In this document: positions 4,973 through 19,995 of the stretch, piece by piece
How positions within the stretch are numbered: position 1 is the first letter of the stretch
Layout: each line of letters opens with the position of its first letter
NCBI RefSeq assembly: GCF_944388875.1
Contig: NZ_CALXKQ010000001.1
Coordinates: 62,001-126,000 of the forward strand
Reading direction: 5' to 3'
From: an uncultured Brachyspira sp.
Lineage (GTDB): Bacteria > Spirochaetota > Brachyspiria > Brachyspirales > Brachyspiraceae
Length of the DNA: 64,000 bases
Notes under the pieces: model-generated
Seen by the model: the letters and a program-made list of their open reading frames with translations, nothing else
Told to the model about the DNA's origin: nothing
Database searches by the model: none
Program-made: the position numbers and the translations under genes

Positions 4973-6328
4973 TTACTTTCCCCATTCATCTGGATTTTTA
5001 TTCCATTCTAATGCCTTTTTCAATTCATCATCTGTTATATAATTTTCATCTTTTGCAATTTCCATAAGAGATGAAAAATTAGAAAGAGATGAAAATTCAA
5101 TACCTGCATCTGCAAAATTTTTATATGCTTTTTCAAATTCATAAGAAAATATAGCTATAATTTCAAGCCCAATAGCCCCCTCACTCTTAGCAGCCTCAAA
5201 TGCTTTAATAGAACTTCCCCCAGTTGATATTAAATCTTCTATTAATATTAATCTTTTTCCATTACATTCAGCACCCTCTATCTGCTTGCCTCTTCCATGT
5301 TCTTTTTTCTCCGCTCTAATGTAGCAAAGAGGCTTATTAAGTTCATAAGCTATGAAAGATGCCCAAGGAATACCCGCAGTAGCAGTACCAGCTATAACAT
5401 CAAAATCCTTATCTTTTAAAACATTTATAAAAGCATCAACTATAACCTTCCTTGATTTAGGAAAACCTATAACATATCTGTTGTCGCAGTATATGGGACT
5501 CTTTATTCCAGACACAAAAGTAAATGGCTCTTTAACATTCAGCTTAACAGCCTGAGTTTCTAATAATGCCCCTGCTATTAATCTAGCCTTTAATTTTTTA
5601 TTGCTTTCTATTCCTTCAGCAATTTCCTCTACAACCATTTTGCATGCTTTTACTCTGTCCTCACTCCTAGTAATAGGTCTTCCAACAACTAAATAATCGC
5701 ATCCATTTTCTATAGCTTCTTTAGGAGTCATTATTCTCTCCTGATCATCTACACTAGCCCATTTAGGTCTAACTCCAGGACATACTGTTCTAAAATTTTC
5801 ACCGCATTCTTTTTTTATAATGCTAGCCTCTCTAGGAGAACATACAACCCCATCAAGTCCAGATTCTTTACCCAATTTAGCCCAATTAACAGCCAAATCA
5901 GTAAGTGCCAAATTAGAACTGAACATATTTTTTACATCATTTTCTGAAAGACTTGTAAGTATAGTTACACCTATTATAAGATTGTCTTTATTTAATTTTT
6001 TTATCTCCTGAACAGTTTTTTCCATCATCTTTTTTCCGCCGCTGGTATGAACATTAAACATAAATATATTCTGCTTAGCTGCGAAGAGAGAAGCCATAGC
6101 CGTAGTATTTGGTATATCATGGAATTTCAAATCAAGAAATACCTTCTTATTTTTTCCTGCTAAATACTCTATTATCTCACCCTTAGTGTATAAAAAAAGC
6201 TCTAACCCAACCTTATAAAATACAGCCTCATCGCCTAATTCATCTATAAGTTTTGTAGCTTCTCCCATAGAATTAAAATCTAATGCTATAATTAATCTCT
6301 CTTTTGGATTATCAGTTAATTTTATCAT
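4973..6328 (-). CDS. pyrFE: Bifunctional orotidine-5'-phosphate decarboxylase / orotate phosphoribosyltransferase
   Basis: The 451-residue protein fuses the last two enzymes of UMP synthesis. Residues 1-240 are OMP decarboxylase with the catalytic motif FLDLKFHDIPNT (Asp66, Lys68, Asp71) and the phosphate-binding segment VVGRPITRSED. Residues ~245-451 are orotate phosphoribosyltransferase with the PRPP-binding motif LILIEDLISTGGSS and an RAEKKEHG loop. The order (decarboxylase first) is the reverse of animal UMP synthase. It is the last gene of a pyrK-pyrD-pyrFE operon, 22 bases after pyrD. The ATG has AAGGA upstream. Both active-site motifs appear intact. Confidence 0.93.
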   Translation of the reverse strand: MIKLTDNPKERLIIALDFNSMGEATKLIDELGDEAVFYKVGLELFLYTKGEIIEYLAGKNKKVFLDLKFHDIPNTTAMASLFAAKQNIFMFNVHTSGGKKMMEKTVQEIKKLNKDNLIIGVTILTSLSENDVKNMFSSNLALTDLAVNWAKLGKESGLDGVVCSPREASIIKKECGENFRTVCPGVRPKWASVDDQERIMTPKEAIENGCDYLVVGRPITRSEDRVKACKMVVEEIAEGIESNKKLKARLIAGALLETQAVKLNVKEPFTFVSGIKSPIYCDNRYVIGFPKSRKVIVDAFINVLKDKDFDVIAGTATAGIPWASFIAYELNKPLCYIRAEKKEHGRGKQIEGAECNGKRLILIEDLISTGGSSIKAFEAAKSEGAIGLEIIAIFSYEFEKAYKNFADAGIEFSSLSNFSSLMEIAKDENYITDDELKKALEWNKNPDEWGK

Positions 6329-6350
6329 AATCTGTCCTTATAGTTTTATT

Positions 6351-7256
6351 TTACAAATGTGCTATGCCTATTAAATCTTTTATAGTTTTTATATTATTAT
6401 TTTTAATATAATCCTCAATGCCGTTAATAACCTCTATAGGCAGTATAGGATTAGAAAATATTCCAGAACCTATAGAAACCAATGAAGCACCAGCCATTAT
6501 AAACTCCAAAGCATCCTCATAACTGCATATACCCCCCATTCCAATAATAGGTATTTTTACAGCTTTATATACTTGATAAACCATTCTAACAGCAATAGGT
6601 CTTATACAAGCTCCTGATAAACCTCCGAATATATTTCCAAGCAAAGGCTTTTTTGTTTTTATATCTATCTTCATAGCCAAAAATGTATTAACAAGAGATA
6701 CGCTGTCGGCACCTGCATTTTCAACAGCCTTAGCTATACTTGAAATATCAGTAACATTCGGAGAAAGCTTCACTATTAAAGGTTTTTTACTTAAAACTTT
6801 TTTTACTGCCTTAGTTGTAGCCTCTGCACTTTCACAGCTTGCCCCAAAAGCCATGCCACCATTTTTTACATTAGGACATGATATATTAAGTTCTACAAAA
6901 TCTACCCTTTCTATCTCATTTGCTATTTCTGCTACCTTTACATATTCATCTAATGTAGCTCCGTTTATATTCAAAATTATCGGAGTCGTATATTTTATAT
7001 TTTTAACTATATTATCTCTAAAATATTCTATACCAGGATTTTCAAGTCCTATACAGTTTATCATTCCAGATGAAGTTTCAGCTAATCTAGTACCTTTATT
7101 TCCGTCTTTTTTATTTAATGTTATACCTTTCAAATTCACAGCACCAAGTTCATTAATATCAAAATAACTGCTGTATTCTTCTCCAAAGCATCCTGAAGAA
7201 GTTATAACATTATTCTTTAATTGCTTGCCAAGAAAGTTTATATTTAATACACTCAT
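6351..7256 (-). CDS. pyrD: Dihydroorotate dehydrogenase B, catalytic subunit
   Basis: The 301-residue protein oxidises dihydroorotate to orotate in the cytosol. It has the class 1B layout: FMN barrel, ELNISCPNVKNGG, the catalytic-loop cysteine in that NISCPN segment, the KLSPNVTDI strand, and the C-terminal FMN phosphate-binding motif MGGICSYEDALEFIMAGAS. Class 1B enzymes pass electrons to an Fe-S/FAD partner subunit, and pyrK lies immediately upstream (17-base gap). Length is normal for the family (about 300-310 residues). Confidence 0.93.
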   Translation of the reverse strand: MSVLNINFLGKQLKNNVITSSGCFGEEYSSYFDINELGAVNLKGITLNKKDGNKGTRLAETSSGMINCIGLENPGIEYFRDNIVKNIKYTTPIILNINGATLDEYVKVAEIANEIERVDFVELNISCPNVKNGGMAFGASCESAEATTKAVKKVLSKKPLIVKLSPNVTDISSIAKAVENAGADSVSLVNTFLAMKIDIKTKKPLLGNIFGGLSGACIRPIAVRMVYQVYKAVKIPIIGMGGICSYEDALEFIMAGASLVSIGSGIFSNPILPIEVINGIEDYIKNNNIKTIKDLIGIAHL

Positions 7257-7273
7257 AATATTATCCGTAAAAA

Positions 7274-8050
7274 TTATATATTTAATAATTTAGCATCAAA
7301 AACAGGACCGTCATGGCATACTTTCTTTAATATATAGCCATTAGTATTATCTTTTATCTCTATATTACATCCTAAACATGCATTAACACCGCATGCCATT
7401 CTCTCCTCAAGAGATGCATAACATATAATATCTTTTTCATTAGCTATTTTTATTAAAGCACTCATCATAACAGCAGGTCCGCATGTATATATAATATCAA
7501 ATTTTTTTTCTTTTAATAATTCTTTCGTTTTATCTACAGCATTGCATTTATCCCCTACTGAACCGTCATCTGTTGTAATATATAAATCAATATTGCTGGT
7601 ATCAAATCTCTTTATTATTTTTAAAGCACTTTCATTAGCACCGCCCATTATCATAGCTATAGAATTATTTGAATCATTATTAAATAATTTTTCTATTAAT
7701 AATTTCATAGGTGCTATACCCATTCCGCCTGCTGTTATTAATATTTTTTTATTCTTTACATCATCTATAGGAAATCCATTGCCTAGAGGACCTTGTATAT
7801 TAAGAATATCATCTTTTTTTAATTTTGATAAATATTCCGTGCCTTTGCCTTTTACCTGATAATAAAATTCAAGAATATCATTATCTATATAGTGCAGACT
7901 TATAGGGCGTCTTAAAAATGTATTGCTTTTAAGCATAAAAAACTGACCTGCTTTTGAATGCTTATAACTCTCTTTAGATTTTAATCTTAAAAGATATTTA
8001 TCATCGCATATTCGTATATTATCTGATATAATACAATCTTCTAAAAACAT
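7274..8050 (-). CDS. pyrK: Dihydroorotate dehydrogenase B, electron-transfer subunit
   Basis: The 258-residue protein has a ferredoxin-reductase fold. FAD is bound near RRPISLHYI (residue ~47), the NAD-binding segment has GGMGIAPMKLLIE (residue ~110), and the C-terminus has the [2Fe-2S] cysteine cluster ACGVNACLGCNIE with a distant fourth cysteine in KKVCHDGP. It passes electrons from PyrD to NAD+. It is the first gene of the pyr operon, with AAGG seven bases before its ATG and an attenuator-like leader upstream. Confidence 0.92.
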   Translation of the reverse strand: MFLEDCIISDNIRICDDKYLLRLKSKESYKHSKAGQFFMLKSNTFLRRPISLHYIDNDILEFYYQVKGKGTEYLSKLKKDDILNIQGPLGNGFPIDDVKNKKILITAGGMGIAPMKLLIEKLFNNDSNNSIAMIMGGANESALKIIKRFDTSNIDLYITTDDGSVGDKCNAVDKTKELLKEKKFDIIYTCGPAVMMSALIKIANEKDIICYASLEERMACGVNACLGCNIEIKDNTNGYILKKVCHDGPVFDAKLLNI

Positions 8051-9875: not shown

Positions 9876-11006
9876 TTAACTGATATTAATTCTTCTATTT
9901 AGGTCGAAATCACCACGCATGCCTGTAAGAATATACCCTATATCTGCCATATTCTTTCTAAGACTCTCTACTCCCTCTGCCGATTCAGTACCTGTAGCTA
10001 TTTTATCATTGTATAATAAATATTTTTTTCTTACGTCCATAGGTGATAAATTAGGCATAACAACATTAGAACCATGAAGTATTCCCATTTCTCTTCCGCC
10101 TTCTCTTATAGTACCTAGTGCTGTTGTAGCAGGAATCAATGCTAAAGGAAAAATTAAACGAAGTATGCTTATAAGTATTAAAGTAAGTTCCAACTCACCT
10201 TTTTTTTCATTAGCAAAAGGAGTATCTTTATGAGGTAAAAATGGTCCTATTCCTATCATCTCTGGCTTTATTTCCTGCATAAATACAAAATCATTAGCTA
10301 TATTTTCTAAAGTTTGATAAGGACTTCCAACCATAATTCCGGTACCTGTTTGATATCCTAACTTTTTTAAATTTCTTAAGCATTCCTTTCTATTATCCAA
10401 ACTCATATCTTTTGGGTGAAGTTTTGAATAGTGAATATTATCAGCCGTTTCATGCCTTAATAAAAATCTATTAGCTTCCTTTTCTTTTAATACTTTATAA
10501 TAATCTTCTTCCTTCTCCCCTATTGATAATGTTAAGGCACAATCTGGAAATTTAGTTTTGATAGCTTCTACTATATCAGACATTATATTTATATTGTAAT
10601 AAGGGTCTTCTCCTCCTTGCAAAACAAAAGTCCTAAATCCTATCTCATAACCAAGCTCGCAGCATGATAAAATATCTTCTTTATTTAATCTGTAGCGTTC
10701 GGCATTTTTATTGCTCTTTCTTATTCCGCAGTATATACAGTCATTCTTGCAGTAATTAGTAAACTCTATAAGCCCCCGCATAAAAACGTATTTACCAAAT
10801 ATTTTATCAGCTTTTTCCCTAGCCTTTACTCTAAGATATTCTTTTAAATCTTTTATGCTCTCTTCTTCCTCTTGAGTTAATTGTTTTTTATTAATATTAT
10901 TATCATATTCAAAAGATGATAATAAAACTAAAGCATCATCATAAGATATACTCTCTTCTTTATCTATTTTGTTAATAATTTCTTTTGACTTGTTTATATC
11001 AATCAA
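9876..11006 (-). CDS. hydE: [FeFe]-hydrogenase maturation radical SAM protein HydE
   Basis: The 376-residue radical SAM enzyme has the cluster motif CKNDCIYC (residues ~73-80) in an EFTNYCKNDCIYCGIRKSN context, then a glycine-rich SAM strand FVLQGGEDPYY. The C-terminal half (GIGPFLPHKDTPFA, NVVMPNLSPMDVRKKYLLYN) is typical of HydE/PylB relatives. HydE helps build the dithiolate-bridged 2Fe subcluster of the H-cluster. The start is TTG at 11006, supported by AAAGGA eight bases upstream. hydF and hydG lie just upstream, separated from hydE by a decayed Rpn gene. No hydrogenase structural gene is in the window. Confidence 0.92.
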   Translation of the reverse strand: MIDINKSKEIINKIDKEESISYDDALVLLSSFEYDNNINKKQLTQEEEESIKDLKEYLRVKAREKADKIFGKYVFMRGLIEFTNYCKNDCIYCGIRKSNKNAERYRLNKEDILSCCELGYEIGFRTFVLQGGEDPYYNINIMSDIVEAIKTKFPDCALTLSIGEKEEDYYKVLKEKEANRFLLRHETADNIHYSKLHPKDMSLDNRKECLRNLKKLGYQTGTGIMVGSPYQTLENIANDFVFMQEIKPEMIGIGPFLPHKDTPFANEKKGELELTLILISILRLIFPLALIPATTALGTIREGGREMGILHGSNVVMPNLSPMDVRKKYLLYNDKIATGTESAEGVESLRKNMADIGYILTGMRGDFDLNRRINIS

Positions 11007-11039
11007 TTTTGTATTCCTTTAAATATACATATTAATATA

Positions 11040-11342
11040 TTATAATTCTTCTATTTCATTTACACTAAGTCCTGTAATATCACTTATCAATGATATATCT
11101 ATATTTTTATTTTTCATATTTTTTGCAGTTAATATTTGGTTTTCTTTTATACCTTTTTCTATACCTTTTTTAAAACCTTCTTCAATGCCTAATCTTCGTT
11201 CTTCTTCCAACATTATCTGATTACCGTATAGATAAGCTTCTCTTTTATCATATTCATTCATCATGAGTCTGTCTTTTATAAAATTATTATATCTTCTCTG
11301 TACATCTTCCATTATAGGTTTTTCTTTAACTAATTCAGACAT
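11040..11342 (-). CDS. C-terminal Rpn fragment with its own start (antitoxin-like ORF)
   Basis: This 100-codon frame encodes the C-terminal part of an Rpn/PD-(D/E)XK transposase-family protein. It contains the typical repeat-like region EEERRLGIEEGFKKGIEKGI and a final helix LISDITGLSVNEIEEL. It starts at ATG 11342 with a strong GGAGG five bases upstream. In E. coli, rpn genes express their C-terminal domain from an internal start as a small antitoxin (RpnS). This fragment matches that arrangement although the upstream nuclease part is broken. Expression is unproven. Confidence 0.5.
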   Translation of the reverse strand: MSELVKEKPIMEDVQRRYNNFIKDRLMMNEYDKREAYLYGNQIMLEEERRLGIEEGFKKGIEKGIKENQILTAKNMKNKNIDISLISDITGLSVNEIEEL

Positions 11343-11372
11343 AATTACCTCCCTACGAGCTGTAGCACCAAC

Positions 11373-11418
11373 CCGCACCGTATTTCAAAATATTATACAA
11401 AATCTTCTATAGGTGCGG
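11373..11418. repeat. Short G+C-rich inverted repeat inside the Rpn remnant
   Basis: CCGCACC (11373-11379) and GGTGCGG (11412-11418) flank a 32-base A+T-rich loop. The G+C-rich arms stand out from the surroundings. The element occupies the place of the deleted middle of the Rpn gene. Confidence 0.5.
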
Positions 11419-11540
11419 CCGAATACCTTTTATTATACCATAAATTATATTTTATCATTAATAAAAAATTAAATTTCTATTATAACAACTGTTCCATTTT
11501 ATGTAATGCATTTTACATCTACAATTGTTTCCTTATAATT

Positions 11541-11588
11541 AAGGCGACTGCGATATCTGTCCACCTTGCGTGCTGCCTTCGGCGACAG
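11541..11588. repeat. G+C-rich insert in the Rpn remnant
   Basis: About 48 bases (AAGGCGACTGCGATATCTG... through GCCTTCGGCGACAG) are markedly richer in G+C than anything nearby. They contain a GCC-TTC-GGC mini-hairpin and two copies of GGCGAC at the ends. The insert is in frame and adds the residues LSPKAARKVDRYRSR between the conserved VEILT and NYKET. It looks like an inserted repeat unit. Confidence 0.5.
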
Positions 11589-11858
11589 AGTAAGTATTTC
11601 CACACTTCTAAAAGTTTTCATATTGGCATCAAGCATTGTTGAATTGATAAAATCAAGTAATATCAAATTGCTGTCTTTAGATGAGAATAAATATCTCACA
11701 AAATAATCATTTAAAACATTAATATCTCTTCTCATAATATAATTATACTAAAAATAAATATAAATGTAAAGTTATAAATAAAAAGTTAATCAAAATTTAA
11801 AAATACATTATTATATAGTAAATATTTCTTTTACTCATTTTATATTATTCGATTTAAA

Positions 11859-13043
11859 TTAAATATATTTCACACCATTAATTTTTGCTATAGTCATGCC
11901 GTAATTAGTTATAGGCACATTCTGCTCTTCGCATATTCTTATTCTATTTAAAATATGCTTTCTAGTACCCATACACCCACCACAATGTATTACCAAATCA
12001 TATTTAGACAAATCATCTGGAAAATCATTACCTGCTACATAATCAATGGCAAAATCACAACCAAATTTCTTTTTTAAAAGATTAGGTATTTTAACCCTTC
12101 CAATATCACCCTCCAAAGGAACATGGGTACAGCTTTCTGCTATTAATAATTTACTTTCCTTTGTAAGTTTATCTATGAAGTCAGCACCTCTTTTATATAC
12201 TTCTTCATTTCCTTTGTATCTTGCAAAAAGCACAGAAAATGAAGTTAAAAGACTTTCTTTAGGTTTTAATTTTTCTACTTCTTTGAATACTTGAGAATCT
12301 GTTATTATAACTTTAGGAGGCTTGCTTAATGCTTTAATGGCATTTTCAAACTTATCAAAAGTAGAAGCCATAATCACAGCCTTATTGTCTAAAATATCTC
12401 TTATAGTCTGTACTTGAGGAAGTATAAGACGCCCTTTTGGTGCTTGAATATCCTGAGGCATAACAAGCATTACAACATCATCTTCTTTAATTATATGTCC
12501 TGTTATACTAATCTCTTCTATCTTAGGTATAGATGATTTTATAGCTTCTATTAGATTATCAATATTAACTCTATTTTTTGAACTGATTGAAACAACTTCT
12601 AAATCAAACATTTCTTTTATATTTTGCTCTATATTTTTATAATTATCATTTAAATCTATTTTATTTAATACAGCTATAACAGGTATCTCTAAAGCAGCAA
12701 GCTCATTTTTCCATTTTAACTCAAGTAAATAATCATTATTAATAAAAGAAGCATCAAATACAAGCAATGCAATGTCAGCAGATTCCATTATTTTTCTAGT
12801 TCTATGTATTCTTAAAGCACCAAGCTCTCCTTCATCATCAAAACCAGCAGTATCAACTATGGCACATGCTCCTATGCCGTTTATCTCTATAGCCTTTTTA
12901 ACAGGGTCTGTAGTAGTTCCTGCAGTATCAGAAACTATCGCTACGTCCTGATTGGCAATTGCATTGATAATGCTGGATTTACCTGCATTTCTTCTTCCGA
13001 ATATTGCAATATGTGTTCTATTTGAATTTGGTGTAGTATTCAT
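11859..13043 (-). CDS. hydF: [FeFe]-hydrogenase maturation GTPase HydF
   Basis: The 394-residue protein begins with a Ras-like GTPase domain: P-loop GRRNAGKSS at residues ~16-24, G2/G3 region SDTAGTTTDPV and VDTAGFDDEGELG, and NKID near residue 140. The C-terminal cluster-binding domain has CTHVPLEGD and HCGGCMGTRKHIL, providing the C-x-H...H-C-x-x-C ligands. HydF is the scaffold that delivers the 2Fe precursor to the hydrogenase. It is separated from hydG by a terminator, so it may have its own transcript. The ATG has GGA upstream. Confidence 0.93.
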   Translation of the reverse strand: MNTTPNSNRTHIAIFGRRNAGKSSIINAIANQDVAIVSDTAGTTTDPVKKAIEINGIGACAIVDTAGFDDEGELGALRIHRTRKIMESADIALLVFDASFINNDYLLELKWKNELAALEIPVIAVLNKIDLNDNYKNIEQNIKEMFDLEVVSISSKNRVNIDNLIEAIKSSIPKIEEISITGHIIKEDDVVMLVMPQDIQAPKGRLILPQVQTIRDILDNKAVIMASTFDKFENAIKALSKPPKVIITDSQVFKEVEKLKPKESLLTSFSVLFARYKGNEEVYKRGADFIDKLTKESKLLIAESCTHVPLEGDIGRVKIPNLLKKKFGCDFAIDYVAGNDFPDDLSKYDLVIHCGGCMGTRKHILNRIRICEEQNVPITNYGMTIAKINGVKYI

Positions 13044-15099: not shown

Positions 15100-16935
15100 T
15101 TATTTTTCTATCTTAAAAAAGCTCATAGCTGCCTGAAGTTCTCTAGCCTCATTATACAATGATATAGAAGAAGCCGTAGACTCTTCAACCAAAGCAGCAT
15201 TTTCCTGAGTTATAGTATCCATTTCCATAACTGCTTTATTAACTTGAGATACTCCAGACTGCTGCTCTACAGCTGCAGAACTTATATCCATTATTATATT
15301 AGCAGTTTCCTCTATTTGTTCTTTTATACCTACAAACAACTGCTCTTGGCTTTCTACTATATTATTGGCTTTATTAATTTTTTCATATACCTGATTTATT
15401 AATTCTGTTATATCTTTAGCCGAATCCTGACTATTTTGTGCCAAACTTCTAACCTCGCTTGCTACAACAGCAAAACCTTTACCCTGATCGCCAGCACGTG
15501 CCGCCTCTACTGCAGCATTAAGTGCCAATATATTAGTTTGAAAAGCAATACCTTCTATAACCTTTATAATATCCTTAATCTTTTCACTATCAGAATTAAC
15601 TTCATGCATACTTCTAACAGTTTCAGATACAACAGAAGATGCATTTTCTATTGCTGTTCTGCAGTCTTTCATCATATTATTGCCTTTAACAGAATTATTA
15701 GTTGCCAATGTAATAGCAGAAGCAATTTCTTCCATAGAAGAAGCTGTTTCTTCAAGATTAGCTGCAGTATTTTCTGCTTTATGAGCTAAATCCTTATTAC
15801 CAGCAGCAAGATTATTAGCGGCTTCAGCCATCCTGTTTGATCCTTCAATAGTCTTTTCTATTACCTCTATAAGTTTGTATTTCATATTATGAAAAGAATG
15901 AGATAATTCTCCAAGTTCATCCTTTCTATTCATCTTTCTTTTATGCATAATAAGTTTTCCGCTTTCTATTTCTTTAGCTTCTTCAACTATAATATTAAGC
16001 GGTTTAATAATACTTCTAGTAAATAAGAATACAACCAATGTCATAATAACCATAGATATTATTCCTATAACTACACTTGTAAAAATTATAGATTTGTTAA
16101 TCTCATAAATTTCTTCTTCATCCATAGCATAAGCAACTATCCAAGGCTGAACTGCCATCTTTTTATAAAATCCCTCTCTAATATTATTATTAAGACCATA
16201 TTTTAGTTTTCCTGAAACAGATTTATTTTGTATAATATTATTATATTCACTTGGGGCTTCTTTATTTATCTCAGCTGGATCTGTATCCATTAAAACTATA
16301 GATTTATCATTAACTATTACTATTCTTCCAGTTCTTCCCAATTGCACATTACTAAAATACGCATCATATATAGACATTATTTGTATAATAGAAACTAAAT
16401 AACCTATTAATTTATTCTCATAATCAAGGATTCTCACACCTAAAGATATTGTAAGCTCTCCTGTAGCAGCTGATTTAGAAATATCTCCAAAAGCCACTTC
16501 TTCTCCAGCTAATAATTTATTCATCATAGTAGGTCTTAAATCCATAAAATTTCTTCCTATTAGCTGAGAATTTCTATCCAAAACTATTTTACCGCTGGTA
16601 TCCATTATAGAAATATTTTCTATAAAATTATTATTTTCTATAAATGAACCTATATCTAAAAAAACATTATTACTGTAAGCTGTCATATTTGAAAAGAAAT
16701 TCTTAATATTAGCACCGCTCGTATATGATTTATTAACCATAATCTGAGCATCCAATATAGAATCAAATAGGTTAGCATACCCCTCAACAGTATTTATAAA
16801 CCCCGTATTCGTACTCTGGGTTATACCCTTATTAGAAAAATATACTGATGTAACAATTAAAAAAGCAAACATCAATATAGACATTAAGCTAATTATTACT
16901 GGTAATCTAAAGGATAGACTATTAAGTTTTTTCAT
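15100..16935 (-). CDS. Methyl-accepting chemotaxis protein with dCache sensor
   Basis: The 611-residue receptor has a first membrane helix at ~11-33, a periplasmic dCache-type sensor at ~35-280 (MDTSGKIVLDRNSQLIGRNF, GRTGRIVIVNDKSIVLMDTD), and a second helix at ~283-306. HAMP (RSIIKPLNIIVEEAKEIESG) follows, then a long cytoplasmic coiled coil. The signalling tip, GIAFQTNILALNAAVEAARA, is fully conserved. It senses an unknown ligand and signals to CheA/CheW. The ATG has AGGAG seven bases upstream. It is monocistronic with a strong promoter. Confidence 0.95.
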   Translation of the reverse strand: MKKLNSLSFRLPVIISLMSILMFAFLIVTSVYFSNKGITQSTNTGFINTVEGYANLFDSILDAQIMVNKSYTSGANIKNFFSNMTAYSNNVFLDIGSFIENNNFIENISIMDTSGKIVLDRNSQLIGRNFMDLRPTMMNKLLAGEEVAFGDISKSAATGELTISLGVRILDYENKLIGYLVSIIQIMSIYDAYFSNVQLGRTGRIVIVNDKSIVLMDTDPAEINKEAPSEYNNIIQNKSVSGKLKYGLNNNIREGFYKKMAVQPWIVAYAMDEEEIYEINKSIIFTSVVIGIISMVIMTLVVFLFTRSIIKPLNIIVEEAKEIESGKLIMHKRKMNRKDELGELSHSFHNMKYKLIEVIEKTIEGSNRMAEAANNLAAGNKDLAHKAENTAANLEETASSMEEIASAITLATNNSVKGNNMMKDCRTAIENASSVVSETVRSMHEVNSDSEKIKDIIKVIEGIAFQTNILALNAAVEAARAGDQGKGFAVVASEVRSLAQNSQDSAKDITELINQVYEKINKANNIVESQEQLFVGIKEQIEETANIIMDISSAAVEQQSGVSQVNKAVMEMDTITQENAALVEESTASSISLYNEARELQAAMSFFKIEK

Positions 16936-17006
16936 AAAAGACTCCTAATTATTTATGATAAATAATCAAATTGGTAAAAACCGACAAAACCCTAATTATG
17001 TATATA

Positions 17007-17034
17007 AGTATAGTCAAAAAAATATAATTGTCAA
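17007..17034 (-). promoter_or_regulatory. Promoter of the chemoreceptor gene
   Basis: On the minus strand a consensus TTGACA, 16 bases, then TATACT lie about 70 bases before the start codon. It is sigma-70-like, not sigma-28-like. Confidence 0.6.
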
Positions 17035-17194
17035 TAGTATTTTACAATAGAATAAATTTTATTATAAAATATTTATTTTATTAAAGTATTTACATAACAG
17101 TTTTTCATTTAGAATTACATAATAAAATTACCTTAATCTGTAGAAAAAAGTATATTAAAGTATATTATATATAAATTATAATACTTATTAAGAA

Positions 17195-17384
17195 TAGATT
17201 TGTTCAAAAACTCAATTATAAAATATTATTTTATATCTTGCATAAACAATTATTTTAATATATAAACATGCTTTAACTGTGCCTGCCAACAGCAAATATG
17301 TAGCACGAATTGTGGTACCAACTATAATTAATATAAAATTAAAAAGCTATAAATATTAATAAATTGTGTTTTTAAACAAGTCTA
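17195..17384. repeat. Inverted-repeat-ended, MITE-like element
   Basis: The left end TAGATTTGTTCAAAAAC (17195-17211) and the reverse complement of the right end TAGACTTGTTTAAAAAC (17368-17384) match at 15 of 17 positions. The 190-bp interior has no ORF but contains a patch of higher G+C around 17281-17325. The same end sequence occurs at 25829-25845. Confidence 0.5.
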
Positions 17385-17420
17385 ACAATAAATATTATAT
17401 TTTACAAGTTTATCATATAT

Positions 17421-17448
17421 TTGACTATTTATAATTTTACTATAAAAT
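17421..17448 (+). promoter_or_regulatory. Promoter placing the pbpC transcript start at its ATG
   Basis: TTGACT (17421-17426), 16 bases, TAAAAT (17443-17448) put the expected transcription start at about the A of the ATG at 17455. No ribosome binding site precedes that ATG, so the mRNA may be leaderless. Confidence 0.45.
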
Positions 17449-17454
17449 TGTCTA

Positions 17455-19995
17455 ATGGAAAAGATTATTAGAAGAACTGCATTAGCTATAATATATACTA
17501 TAATATCTTCTTTAGTAGTACTCTCAATTATATTTATACCAAAAGGCTATAACTTATATAAACATTGTAAGGAATATATAAACAAGCCATTCTCAAAAGA
17601 TGAATTAAATATTAATGAAGAGCGTGCTTTAAAAATATATGACAGAAACTCAATACTAATATCAACCATATTTCCAAAGCATGGCGGTTTTTTTGAAGAG
17701 GTAAAATACGAAGACTTATCAACAAATTTGATTAATGCAGTAGTAAGTGCAGAGGATAAAAATTTTTTTAATCATAATGGAATAGATTATAAGGCTATAA
17801 TAAGAGCATTTTTATCAAACTTAATAAGCGGAAAAGTGGTTTCAGGAGGAAGTACAATTACTCAGCAGCTGGCTAAAAGTATAATACCGCGTGAGAGAAC
17901 ATATATTAATAAATTCTATGAAGCACTTGATGCCTTAAGATTAGAAAAAAATCTCACAAAAAAAGAAATACTCACTGAATATTTAAATAGAGTATTTTTT
18001 GGAAACAACTGCTATGGTGTGGGGGCAGCAAGTGATTTATATTTTCATAAAAAAGTTAATGATTTAAATAATAATGAATCTGCAATGCTTGCTTCTATAA
18101 TAAAATCTGGTACAAAGTTCAATCCTTATAAATATGAAGAGAGATTAAAATCAAGAAGAATATATGTATTGGGTGAAATGAAAAATAATAATTTCATCAC
18201 AGAAGAAGATTATAATAAAAGTATTAATGAAAAATTAAATATATATAATGATAAAGATAAATATACTTTTAAAGCTCCTCATTTTACAATGTACGCAAAA
18301 GAATCACTTGAACAGCTAAAATATACAGGCGTAACAGAATTAAGAACTACATTAGATTATAATATGCAGAAAGAGGCAGTTTTGGTTATAAGCAATTCAA
18401 GTCAGTCGCTTCATACATTTAATGTTCGTAATATTTCATGCGTGATACTTAATGCCAAAACAGGAGAAGTGCTTTCAATGATAGGCTCTATGGACTATTT
18501 TGATGCTGAAACTCACGGAGCAGTAAACGGAGCAACAGCATTAAGACAGGCTGGAAGTACATTAAAGCCTTTTATGTATGCATATATATTCGATAAAGGA
18601 GAATCACCTGCTTCCGTTATAGCCGATATTAAAACTTATATTAATTCCCCTGGCGGAGATTATATACCAGAAAACTTTGATCATAAATACAGAGGTCCAG
18701 TTACTATAAGAGATGCATTAGCCAATTCTCTTAATATACCAGCTGTTAAATGGCTTGCAAGATACAGTATAAGAGATTTTCAGAATATACTTTTAAAAGC
18801 AGGATTAAGCTCTATAGATAAAAATCCAGACTATTATGGATATTCTTTAGTTCTTGGAAGTGCTGAAGTGCGTTTAATAGATTTAGCTTCAGCATATACG
18901 ATATTTCCAAACTCTGGAACATTTATAAATCATTACTCAATCACTTCATTAAAAAAAGCAAATGGAGAAATTATAACACTTCCCAAAAAAGCAACTAGAA
19001 AAGTAATATCAGAAGAAAGTGCATATTTGATAACAAGCATACTTTCTGACAGAAATGCAAGAATGGGTTCTTTCAGAAGTTATAAAGGAATAGTGTATCC
19101 ATTTTCCATAGCAATAAAAACAGGCACATCAAAAGGCTCAAGGGATGCATGGGCTATAGGTTACACTAGAGATTATATAGTAGGTATTTGGCTTGGAGAT
19201 TTTGCAGGAAGCGAGATGATTAATATAACTGGAGGTAATGGTGCTGTACCTATACTTTATGATATATTTACTATGCTTAATAAAAGTCAGAAAGAAACTA
19301 AATGGGACAGACCAGATACTATAATAAAAAGGGAAATATGTCTTATAAGCGGAAAACTTAGAGGAGATTTTTGTAAAGAAACAAGAGTTGAAGAGTTCTC
19401 TCATATAAATGTACCTAAAGAAGAATGCGATGTTCATAACTTATATATAAAAACAAACTCTGATGGCTCTGTTACAGAAAAAGTTTTTGTAAATCTTCCC
19501 AATGAATATAATGGCTGGATAAAAGAGCAGCAGATAGAACGCCCTACTTCAGAATGGATAAAAGTTAATAATATTTATGCATATAATAACAGAATTAAAA
19601 ATAATATTTATAATCAAAACAGATATTTGGAAAGTATAAATCAAGAAAATAGTTTTGATTTAAATTCTGTAAATACACCTTCAGAAGCATTTAATAGAAA
19701 TATTAATATAAAAGAAAGGCTTTCAATAAAAGAACCTACTGATAATTCAGTATATAAAATAGACTCAACACTTCCAATAGAATATCAAAATATATTCATA
19801 TCATCATATATACCAAAAAATATTATAACTGCTGAGTTATACTGCAACAAGGAAGTAATAGCAAATATTGATGATTTAAAAAAAGATTATATAAAATGGA
19901 ATTTAAAACAAGGCGATTATACTTTTTATATAGAAGCAAAAACTGATGATGGAAATACTATAAAAAGCTCAGCTGTAAAAATATACGTACAATAA
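17455..19995 (+). CDS. pbpC: Penicillin-binding protein 1C (bifunctional transglycosylase/transpeptidase)
   Basis: The 846-residue envelope enzyme polymerises and cross-links peptidoglycan. One N-terminal membrane helix spans residues ~8-28. The GT51 transglycosylase domain follows (catalytic Glu100 in SAEDKNFFNH; GGSTITQQLAK). The transpeptidase has Ser368 in S-T-L-K, S425-L-N427 and K555-T-G-T-S, so all three motifs are intact. The last ~95 residues match the BiPBP_C domain of PBP1C proteins (LSIKEPTDNSVYKID). The partner macroglobulin gene often found beside pbpC is absent. No ribosome binding site is seen. Confidence 0.92.
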   Translation: MEKIIRRTALAIIYTIISSLVVLSIIFIPKGYNLYKHCKEYINKPFSKDELNINEERALKIYDRNSILISTIFPKHGGFFEEVKYEDLSTNLINAVVSAEDKNFFNHNGIDYKAIIRAFLSNLISGKVVSGGSTITQQLAKSIIPRERTYINKFYEALDALRLEKNLTKKEILTEYLNRVFFGNNCYGVGAASDLYFHKKVNDLNNNESAMLASIIKSGTKFNPYKYEERLKSRRIYVLGEMKNNNFITEEDYNKSINEKLNIYNDKDKYTFKAPHFTMYAKESLEQLKYTGVTELRTTLDYNMQKEAVLVISNSSQSLHTFNVRNISCVILNAKTGEVLSMIGSMDYFDAETHGAVNGATALRQAGSTLKPFMYAYIFDKGESPASVIADIKTYINSPGGDYIPENFDHKYRGPVTIRDALANSLNIPAVKWLARYSIRDFQNILLKAGLSSIDKNPDYYGYSLVLGSAEVRLIDLASAYTIFPNSGTFINHYSITSLKKANGEIITLPKKATRKVISEESAYLITSILSDRNARMGSFRSYKGIVYPFSIAIKTGTSKGSRDAWAIGYTRDYIVGIWLGDFAGSEMINITGGNGAVPILYDIFTMLNKSQKETKWDRPDTIIKREICLISGKLRGDFCKETRVEEFSHINVPKEECDVHNLYIKTNSDGSVTEKVFVNLPNEYNGWIKEQQIERPTSEWIKVNNIYAYNNRIKNNIYNQNRYLESINQENSFDLNSVNTPSEAFNRNINIKERLSIKEPTDNSVYKIDSTLPIEYQNIFISSYIPKNIITAELYCNKEVIANIDDLKKDYIKWNLKQGDYTFYIEAKTDDGNTIKSSAVKIYVQ

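Follow-up and report, generated by a model that had tools for sequence, protein, structure and literature searches.

A dispersed folded repeat within a broken rpn gene next to hydE in Brachyspira, and the probably translatable rpnS-like frame behind it

The stretch of DNA analysed here, referred to as the window, comprises 64,000 nucleotides from an uncultured Brachyspira sp. (contig NZ_CALXKQ010000001.1, positions 62,001 to 126,000). The only rpn gene at the locus considered is a broken one, the whole of which is read on the minus strand. Its parts, compared with the intact orthologues L053, L054, L057 and L060 and with seven further loci (L071-L077), are the following:

11472..11735, minus strand: rpn N-terminal fragment, the PD-(D/E)XK nuclease half, 88 codons, aligning with L053, L054, L057 and L060
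11544..11588, minus strand: short GC-rich in-frame insertion within the N-terminal fragment, net +24 nt relative to the orthologues in the alignment
11353..11471, minus strand: foreign stretch replacing about 308 nt of the gene, its first bases forming the second TAA (11471-11469); homologous in L071-L077
11353..11440, minus strand: 88-nt core of a dispersed structured repeat, defined by covariance model R1 and covariation
11418-11412 with 11379-11373, and 11365-11362 with 11356-11353, minus strand: core stem and mini-hairpin of model R1
11432..11440, minus strand: TGGTATAAT, an element resembling an extended -10 promoter, as read from the sequence
11348..11353, minus strand: GGGAGG Shine-Dalgarno (SD) sequence, already present in the intact orthologues
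11040..11342, minus strand: rpnS-like open reading frame (ORF), 100 codons plus stop, the C-terminal Rpn tail with four-residue repeats

The rpn frame starts at 11735 and, as the original prediction had it, carries two in-frame stops in the nuclease half, namely the TAA at 11501-11499 and the TAA at 11471-11469, which lies directly 3' of the codons for EI. In total, six in-frame stops precede the ATG at 11342, and the four beyond the first two fall inside the replaced stretch. The site of the first stop encodes Q in the intact orthologues L053, L054 and L060 and H in L057, and where the window has EI followed by a stop, the intact orthologues have EIQ, which we take to be the catalytic strand of the nuclease. 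The earlier reading that a stop had taken the place of a catalytic-strand residue is right in that the TAA directly follows EI; a point change of that residue is not supported, as the stop sits at the junction with the inserted repeat. In the alignment, homology with the intact orthologues ends at about 11472 and restarts at about 11355, leaving 308 nt of L053 without counterpart, so that the middle of the nuclease is indeed missing, and about 116 nt of other sequence stands there instead. A near-identical copy of a 26-mer from the insertion at 11544-11588 is found at one other site of the same genome, inside an intact paralogue.

Neither a full-length match above the cut-off of an Rpn nuclease family nor a frame open through the catalytic strand was found in the window gene: the N-terminal fragment scores 18.5 bits against PF12784 (cut-off 27.4) and the tail gives a partial match to positions 197-273 of TIGR01784 with 42 bits (cut-off 52.1). 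The orthologue L053 exceeds both cut-offs, with 135.6 and 152.7 bits (Rpn families TIGR01784 / PF12784). Judged by its sequence, the window gene thus belongs to the Rpn family, and its nuclease half is dead. Its last 100 codons are open, as had been noted before, running from the ATG at 11342-11340 to the stop at 11042-11040 behind GGGAGG-TAATT-ATG, in which a 5-nt spacer separates the SD sequence from the start codon.

For comparison, 26 genomes of the same genus were searched and the best loci were checked for their flanking genes; all relatives named here are Brachyspira. An intact rpn adjoins hydE in four sister genomes: it lies between hydF and hydE at L053 (genome G005), L054 (G006) and L060 (G025), and at L057 (G015) rpn and hydE are both present and the contig ends before hydF. 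These orthologous genes encode about 290-305 residues, and the SD sequence, the spacer and the internal ATG are found in all four of them. A comparison with sister strains had been proposed along with the original prediction; the sister genomes indicate a gene that was once whole and was broken in the lineage of the window.

The sequence that replaces the middle of the gene belongs to a dispersed repeat. The covariance model R1 was built from 11 copies, and the window copy, which was one of them, scores 99.4 bits in the search of its own genome, where 13 copies are found at E <= 0.01. Copies occur in 24 of 26 Brachyspira genomes, with 0 to 59 per genome. Among 102 distinct copies, 97.0% of the cells are paired, compared with 87.2% in shuffles, and 98 cells are changed on both sides, compared with 24.3, with the caveat that an alignment fitted to the model favours the structure of the model and that copies related by kinship inflate such counts. 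Two measures that count pairs, namely pairs with a change on both sides and further pair types, do not rise above the shuffles. The four-base mini-stem occurs as CTAC/GTAG in 51 copies, CCGC/GCGG in 11, GTAC/GTAC in seven, GTAT/ATAC in seven and GTGC/GCAC in five, in addition to other variants. Folding of the replaced stretch by itself, as a single strand, is unexceptional (z -1.47, with 15 of 200 shuffles equally good), so the structural claim rests on the alignment, in which the covariation is strong.

Rfam holds no match for positions 10900-12000 of the window up to E 5, nor for the restriction-gene locus L086 of the same genome up to E 1, and no description of the repeat or of the locus was found in the open-access literature searched, PMC3532143 included. 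Two known kinds of repeat were considered and rejected. An integron attC site is contradicted by the lack of any TIGR02249 match over the cut-off in the genome, where tyrosine recombinases match only below it, and a REP element mobilised by a RAYT by the lack of a match to the Y1 transposase PF01797 in the genome, the control having matched in six of 14 genomes. PADLOC returned only weak matches, to a "putative invertase" model (E 0.011 and 0.031). One copy in the same genome (L162 1000-1247, G000:C36) is part of a unit some 248 bp long whose terminal inverted repeats are imperfect. At the orthologous place in G004, G010 and G016 (empty places L319, L320 and L321) this unit is absent, so that this form, if no other, has the behaviour of an insertion. 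In its terminal inverted repeats and its empty sites, this single dispersed copy resembles MITE-like elements, whereas the rpn-linked copies consist of the core and some upstream sequence, without terminal inverted repeats.

Several other arrangements of the repeat were observed. At L208 7062-7431 (G010:C1:2162062-2162431), repeat cores form a tandem array (period about 71 bp), and other short GC-rich modules are nested between them. On the minus strand of L086 (G000:C1:405000-424999), Eco57I-like Type IIG restriction-modification genes at 6253-7620, 10931-12379 and 15630-18506 form a cassette-like array of one full-length gene and two 5'-truncated copies, which keep the TaqI_C specificity domain and start at a repeat end. 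Further clusters of repeats are located at G010:C1:2150-2170k and G004:C1:2508-2524k, and at L182 (G004:C1, about 1417635) a copy of the repeat lies between ORFs that, by eye from their translations, resemble a Type I specificity subunit and the N-terminus of a restriction subunit.

The junction between the repeat and rpnS, which the original prediction missed together with the repeat itself, recurs at seven further rpn loci, three of them in G022 and one each in G024, G025, G008 and G010. The upstream part of rpn ends at three different places, after EI in the window, after about FNLD in L071-L075 and after LQIHI in L076 and L077; the downstream junction is constant. Of the eight loci, four (L073-L076) have both halves open, two (the window and L072) only the tail, one (L071) only the N-terminal half, and one (L077) neither. 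In a tree of 103 leaves, the six distinct sequences of the rpn-side cores fall into a group of eight leaves (support 0.892), which also holds two L131 copies away from any rpn. As the rpn-side cores group together, one fusion followed by spread and rearrangement is likelier than many independent insertions. The recurrence exceeds what a single accident leads one to expect, although the cores look related by descent.

The ORF behind the repeat corresponds to a gene within a gene that is known from E. coli, where, as the original prediction stated and Zhong et al. (PMC10327210) bear out, rpn genes encode an intragenic C-terminal antitoxin, RpnS. The duplex predicted between the anti-SD sequence and the region before the ATG at 11342 has an energy of -10.3 kcal/mol and is stronger than the 1% quantile (-9.3 kcal/mol) that 17 intact paralogues give over 5186 in-frame positions. 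These 17 paralogues were found in a search of the same genome for intact genes with a related C-terminus, and in each of them the SD sequence of the homologous ATG, of the GG(A/G)G type and with -8.6 to -11.1 kcal/mol, is stronger than that of any other internal Met codon. The residues encoded by this SD sequence vary with the subfamily (KEAI, LEAS, LEDT, GGNNI, KGED) and the purine-rich stretch is retained, pointing to the DNA signal as the object of selection. Like RpnS, the 3' ORF represents the C-terminal part of Rpn with its own ribosome-binding site and start codon, and it contains four-residue repeats of varying number: tails of the same C-terminal subfamily have 92, 96, 100, 104, 108 or 116 residues, in steps of these repeats, and those of the orthologues also differ in length by multiples of four. 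Six paralogues in the genome (L002-L007) belong to this subfamily, of which only L004 has a tail of equal length, with 75 of its 100 residues identical to the window tail. The ORF is therefore the ancestral intragenic rpnS, and it is probably translatable.

An AF2 model of the tail, computed from an alignment (A4) of the tail and 36 of the 78 named loci, predicts one long helix and two short ones (pLDDT 82.6, pTM 0.46). The order of a long helix followed by two short ones is that of RpnA-S, which ranks first among PDB structures both with Foldseek (7TH0, E 0.85, prob 0.96) and with VIA-align 2 (Z 7.9, rmsd 1.5, 46/46 residues), although the latter tool warns that a Z below 8 may reflect a common arrangement. 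The predicted agreement is thus based on modest statistics; neither score is significant by itself, and its weight lies in the expected molecule ranking first. A PDB sequence search with L053 gave no Rpn entry up to E 1, and a profile of the tails reached 7TH0 at rank 3 (E 0.12), under two unrelated chains. Together with the start codon conserved in 17 of 17 paralogues, the fold match agrees with the antitoxin-like character that had been ascribed to the 3' ORF.

The reading that we consider probable is that the rpn gene next to hydE was broken in the lineage of the window when about 308 bp of the nuclease domain gave way to the core of the dispersed folded repeat. The SD sequence and start codon of the pre-existing intragenic rpnS, just 3' of the break point, were left untouched, so the small protein can probably still be translated, perhaps with the -10-like box in the repeat as its promoter. 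Once produced, it would adopt the long-helix fold of RpnS and could bind an RpnL whose tail matches and block it, its most likely target being the paralogue L004 on contig C9. This reading explains the openness of the frame by the recency of the break, without selection.

The recency of the break is suggested by the N-terminal fragment, in which, outside the insertion, the only unique nonsynonymous change in 88 codons is the stop. With this single point stop besides the junction, the gene seems to have been broken recently, in which case an open tail of 100 codons is expected. The tail shows a dN of 0.016-0.025 and a dS of 0.49-0.53 between the window and L053 and L054, low ratios that would also fit continued selection, and much or most of this divergence may predate the break. 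A census of 78 rpn matches in named genomes comprised 56 full genes, 10 at contig edges, which were left unclassified, and 12 decayed ones. From the last, L269 and L281, which are the repeat-split L072 and L071, and L304 and L314, which lack both parts, were set aside. In the remaining eight loci, the tail is open in five (L254, L277, L287, L306, L313) and the N-terminal part in three (L288, L291, L292), as compared with the 5.2:2.8 that part lengths of some 190 and 100 codons predict, in small numbers and in draft and metagenome assemblies that may contain sequencing errors. Better-than-chance survival of the tail is thus not apparent, and single-lesion decay elsewhere strikes the two parts in proportion to their lengths. 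Accordingly, neither the earlier suggestion that the toxin decayed first nor the one that the small ORF was kept by selection finds support in the census, and the recency of the break suffices to explain the open frame.

These results also suit a plain pseudogene, in which the tail drifts and is neither transcribed nor translated. The recent break and the neutral census of lesions fit this possible, if somewhat doubtful, alternative, as does the promoter scan, which gave no complete promoter and no site with both hexamers at 11432-11440, for which reason TGGTATAAT is only suggestive as a -10 box. It accounts less well for the unchanged SD sequence and start codon, for the lack of any unpaired change in the tail and for the repeated occurrence of the same junction.

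According to another explanation, which seems unlikely, the tail behind the repeat works as an antitoxin gene standing on its own and is retained by selection for neutralising other Rpn copies. Such a gene would have the open ORF, the strong SD sequence and the -10-like box seen in the window, and the tail is open at six of the eight repeat-split loci (the window and L072-L076). In L073 and L075, which occupy orthologous places with flanks 97% identical, the tails differ by a dN of 0.008 and a dS of 0.091, and free-standing rpnS genes exist in E. coli, according to PMC10327210. However, the N-terminal half is equally constrained in L073/L075 (dN 0.014, dS 0.21), so that both halves look constrained, it is open at five of the eight loci (L071 and L073-L076), and open tails are not in excess in the census of named genomes. 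The tail may protect against other Rpn copies, a role restricted by the specificity for repeat number, which limits cross-neutralisation, and retention of the tail for such protection is likewise possible, unsupported by the tests made. If the small protein does act as RpnS, it could do so most plausibly against L004, whose tail is of equal length.

The repeat also adjoins other defence genes. An ORF of at least 100 amino acids begins no more than 60 nt after the repeat in 10 of 33 copies from G000, G004 and G010 (a raw count, tandem and weak copies excluded), and six of these ten ORFs are, by sequence, 5'-truncated Eco57I-like Type IIG genes, two of them confirmed with Pfam. The 3' fragments that the repeat caps thus come from more than one defence gene, namely from rpn and from Type IIG genes. 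On this basis it can be conceived, as a quite unlikely possibility, that the mobile folded Brachyspira repeat is a capping module that provides such fragments, be they rpn tails or the target-recognition halves of Type IIG genes, with a -10-like box and a leader, and so gives rise to free-standing antitoxins or to donor cassettes moving between species. Still more improbable is that the tail behind the repeat serves as a gene-conversion donor diversifying the C-termini of intact rpn genes, as might be suggested by the orthologous L072 and L074 (flanks 97%), in which the distal C-terminal ORF is only 67% identical, with indels, in one 100-nt bin and the repeat 99%, and by the same repeat capping 5'-truncated Type IIG genes that hold target-recognition domains, because the N-terminal half is also mosaic (83-90% in several bins), so exchange is not specific to the tail, and no donor-recipient tract linking the tail in the window to any intact gene was traced.

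A repeat-broken rpn with a readable ancestral rpnS extends the gene-within-gene start of RpnS to Brachyspira: each of the 17 intact paralogues examined, all from one genome, has the homologous ATG as its best-supported internal start. Loci with an antitoxin tail naturally set apart from the nuclease would allow a direct test of RpnS action in trans between paralogues and of how strictly the number of repeats determines specificity, and the splitting repeat is itself noteworthy for its strong covariation, its presence in 24 of the 26 Brachyspira genomes and its position beside truncated restriction genes.

In E. coli, according to Zhong et al. (PMC10327210), RpnS has its own RpnL as specific target, and it matters how many four-residue repeats there are. 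The window tail resembles it in being the C-terminal part of Rpn with its own SD sequence and ATG inside the long gene, and in the hypervariable four-residue repeats in a long helix, the predicted fold matching all 46 of 46 residues of RpnA-S. It differs in that the Brachyspira product is about twice as long (92-118 residues from the conserved start in most paralogues, compared with the 49-residue RpnA-S chain), that its start falls inside the PF12784 match (8-234 in L053), and that the long protein is gone at the window locus, where the antitoxin role is predicted. Free-standing rpnS genes of E. coli such as ypaA, which according to the same text follow an intact rpn of matching type, share with the window tail that a separate gene encodes the small protein; the window locus, in contrast, has no intact rpn, and the region upstream of its tail is the dispersed repeat. 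Free-standing rpnS is thus known from E. coli, and what is new in Brachyspira is the splitting of rpn by a folded dispersed repeat and the recurrence of this split within the genus.
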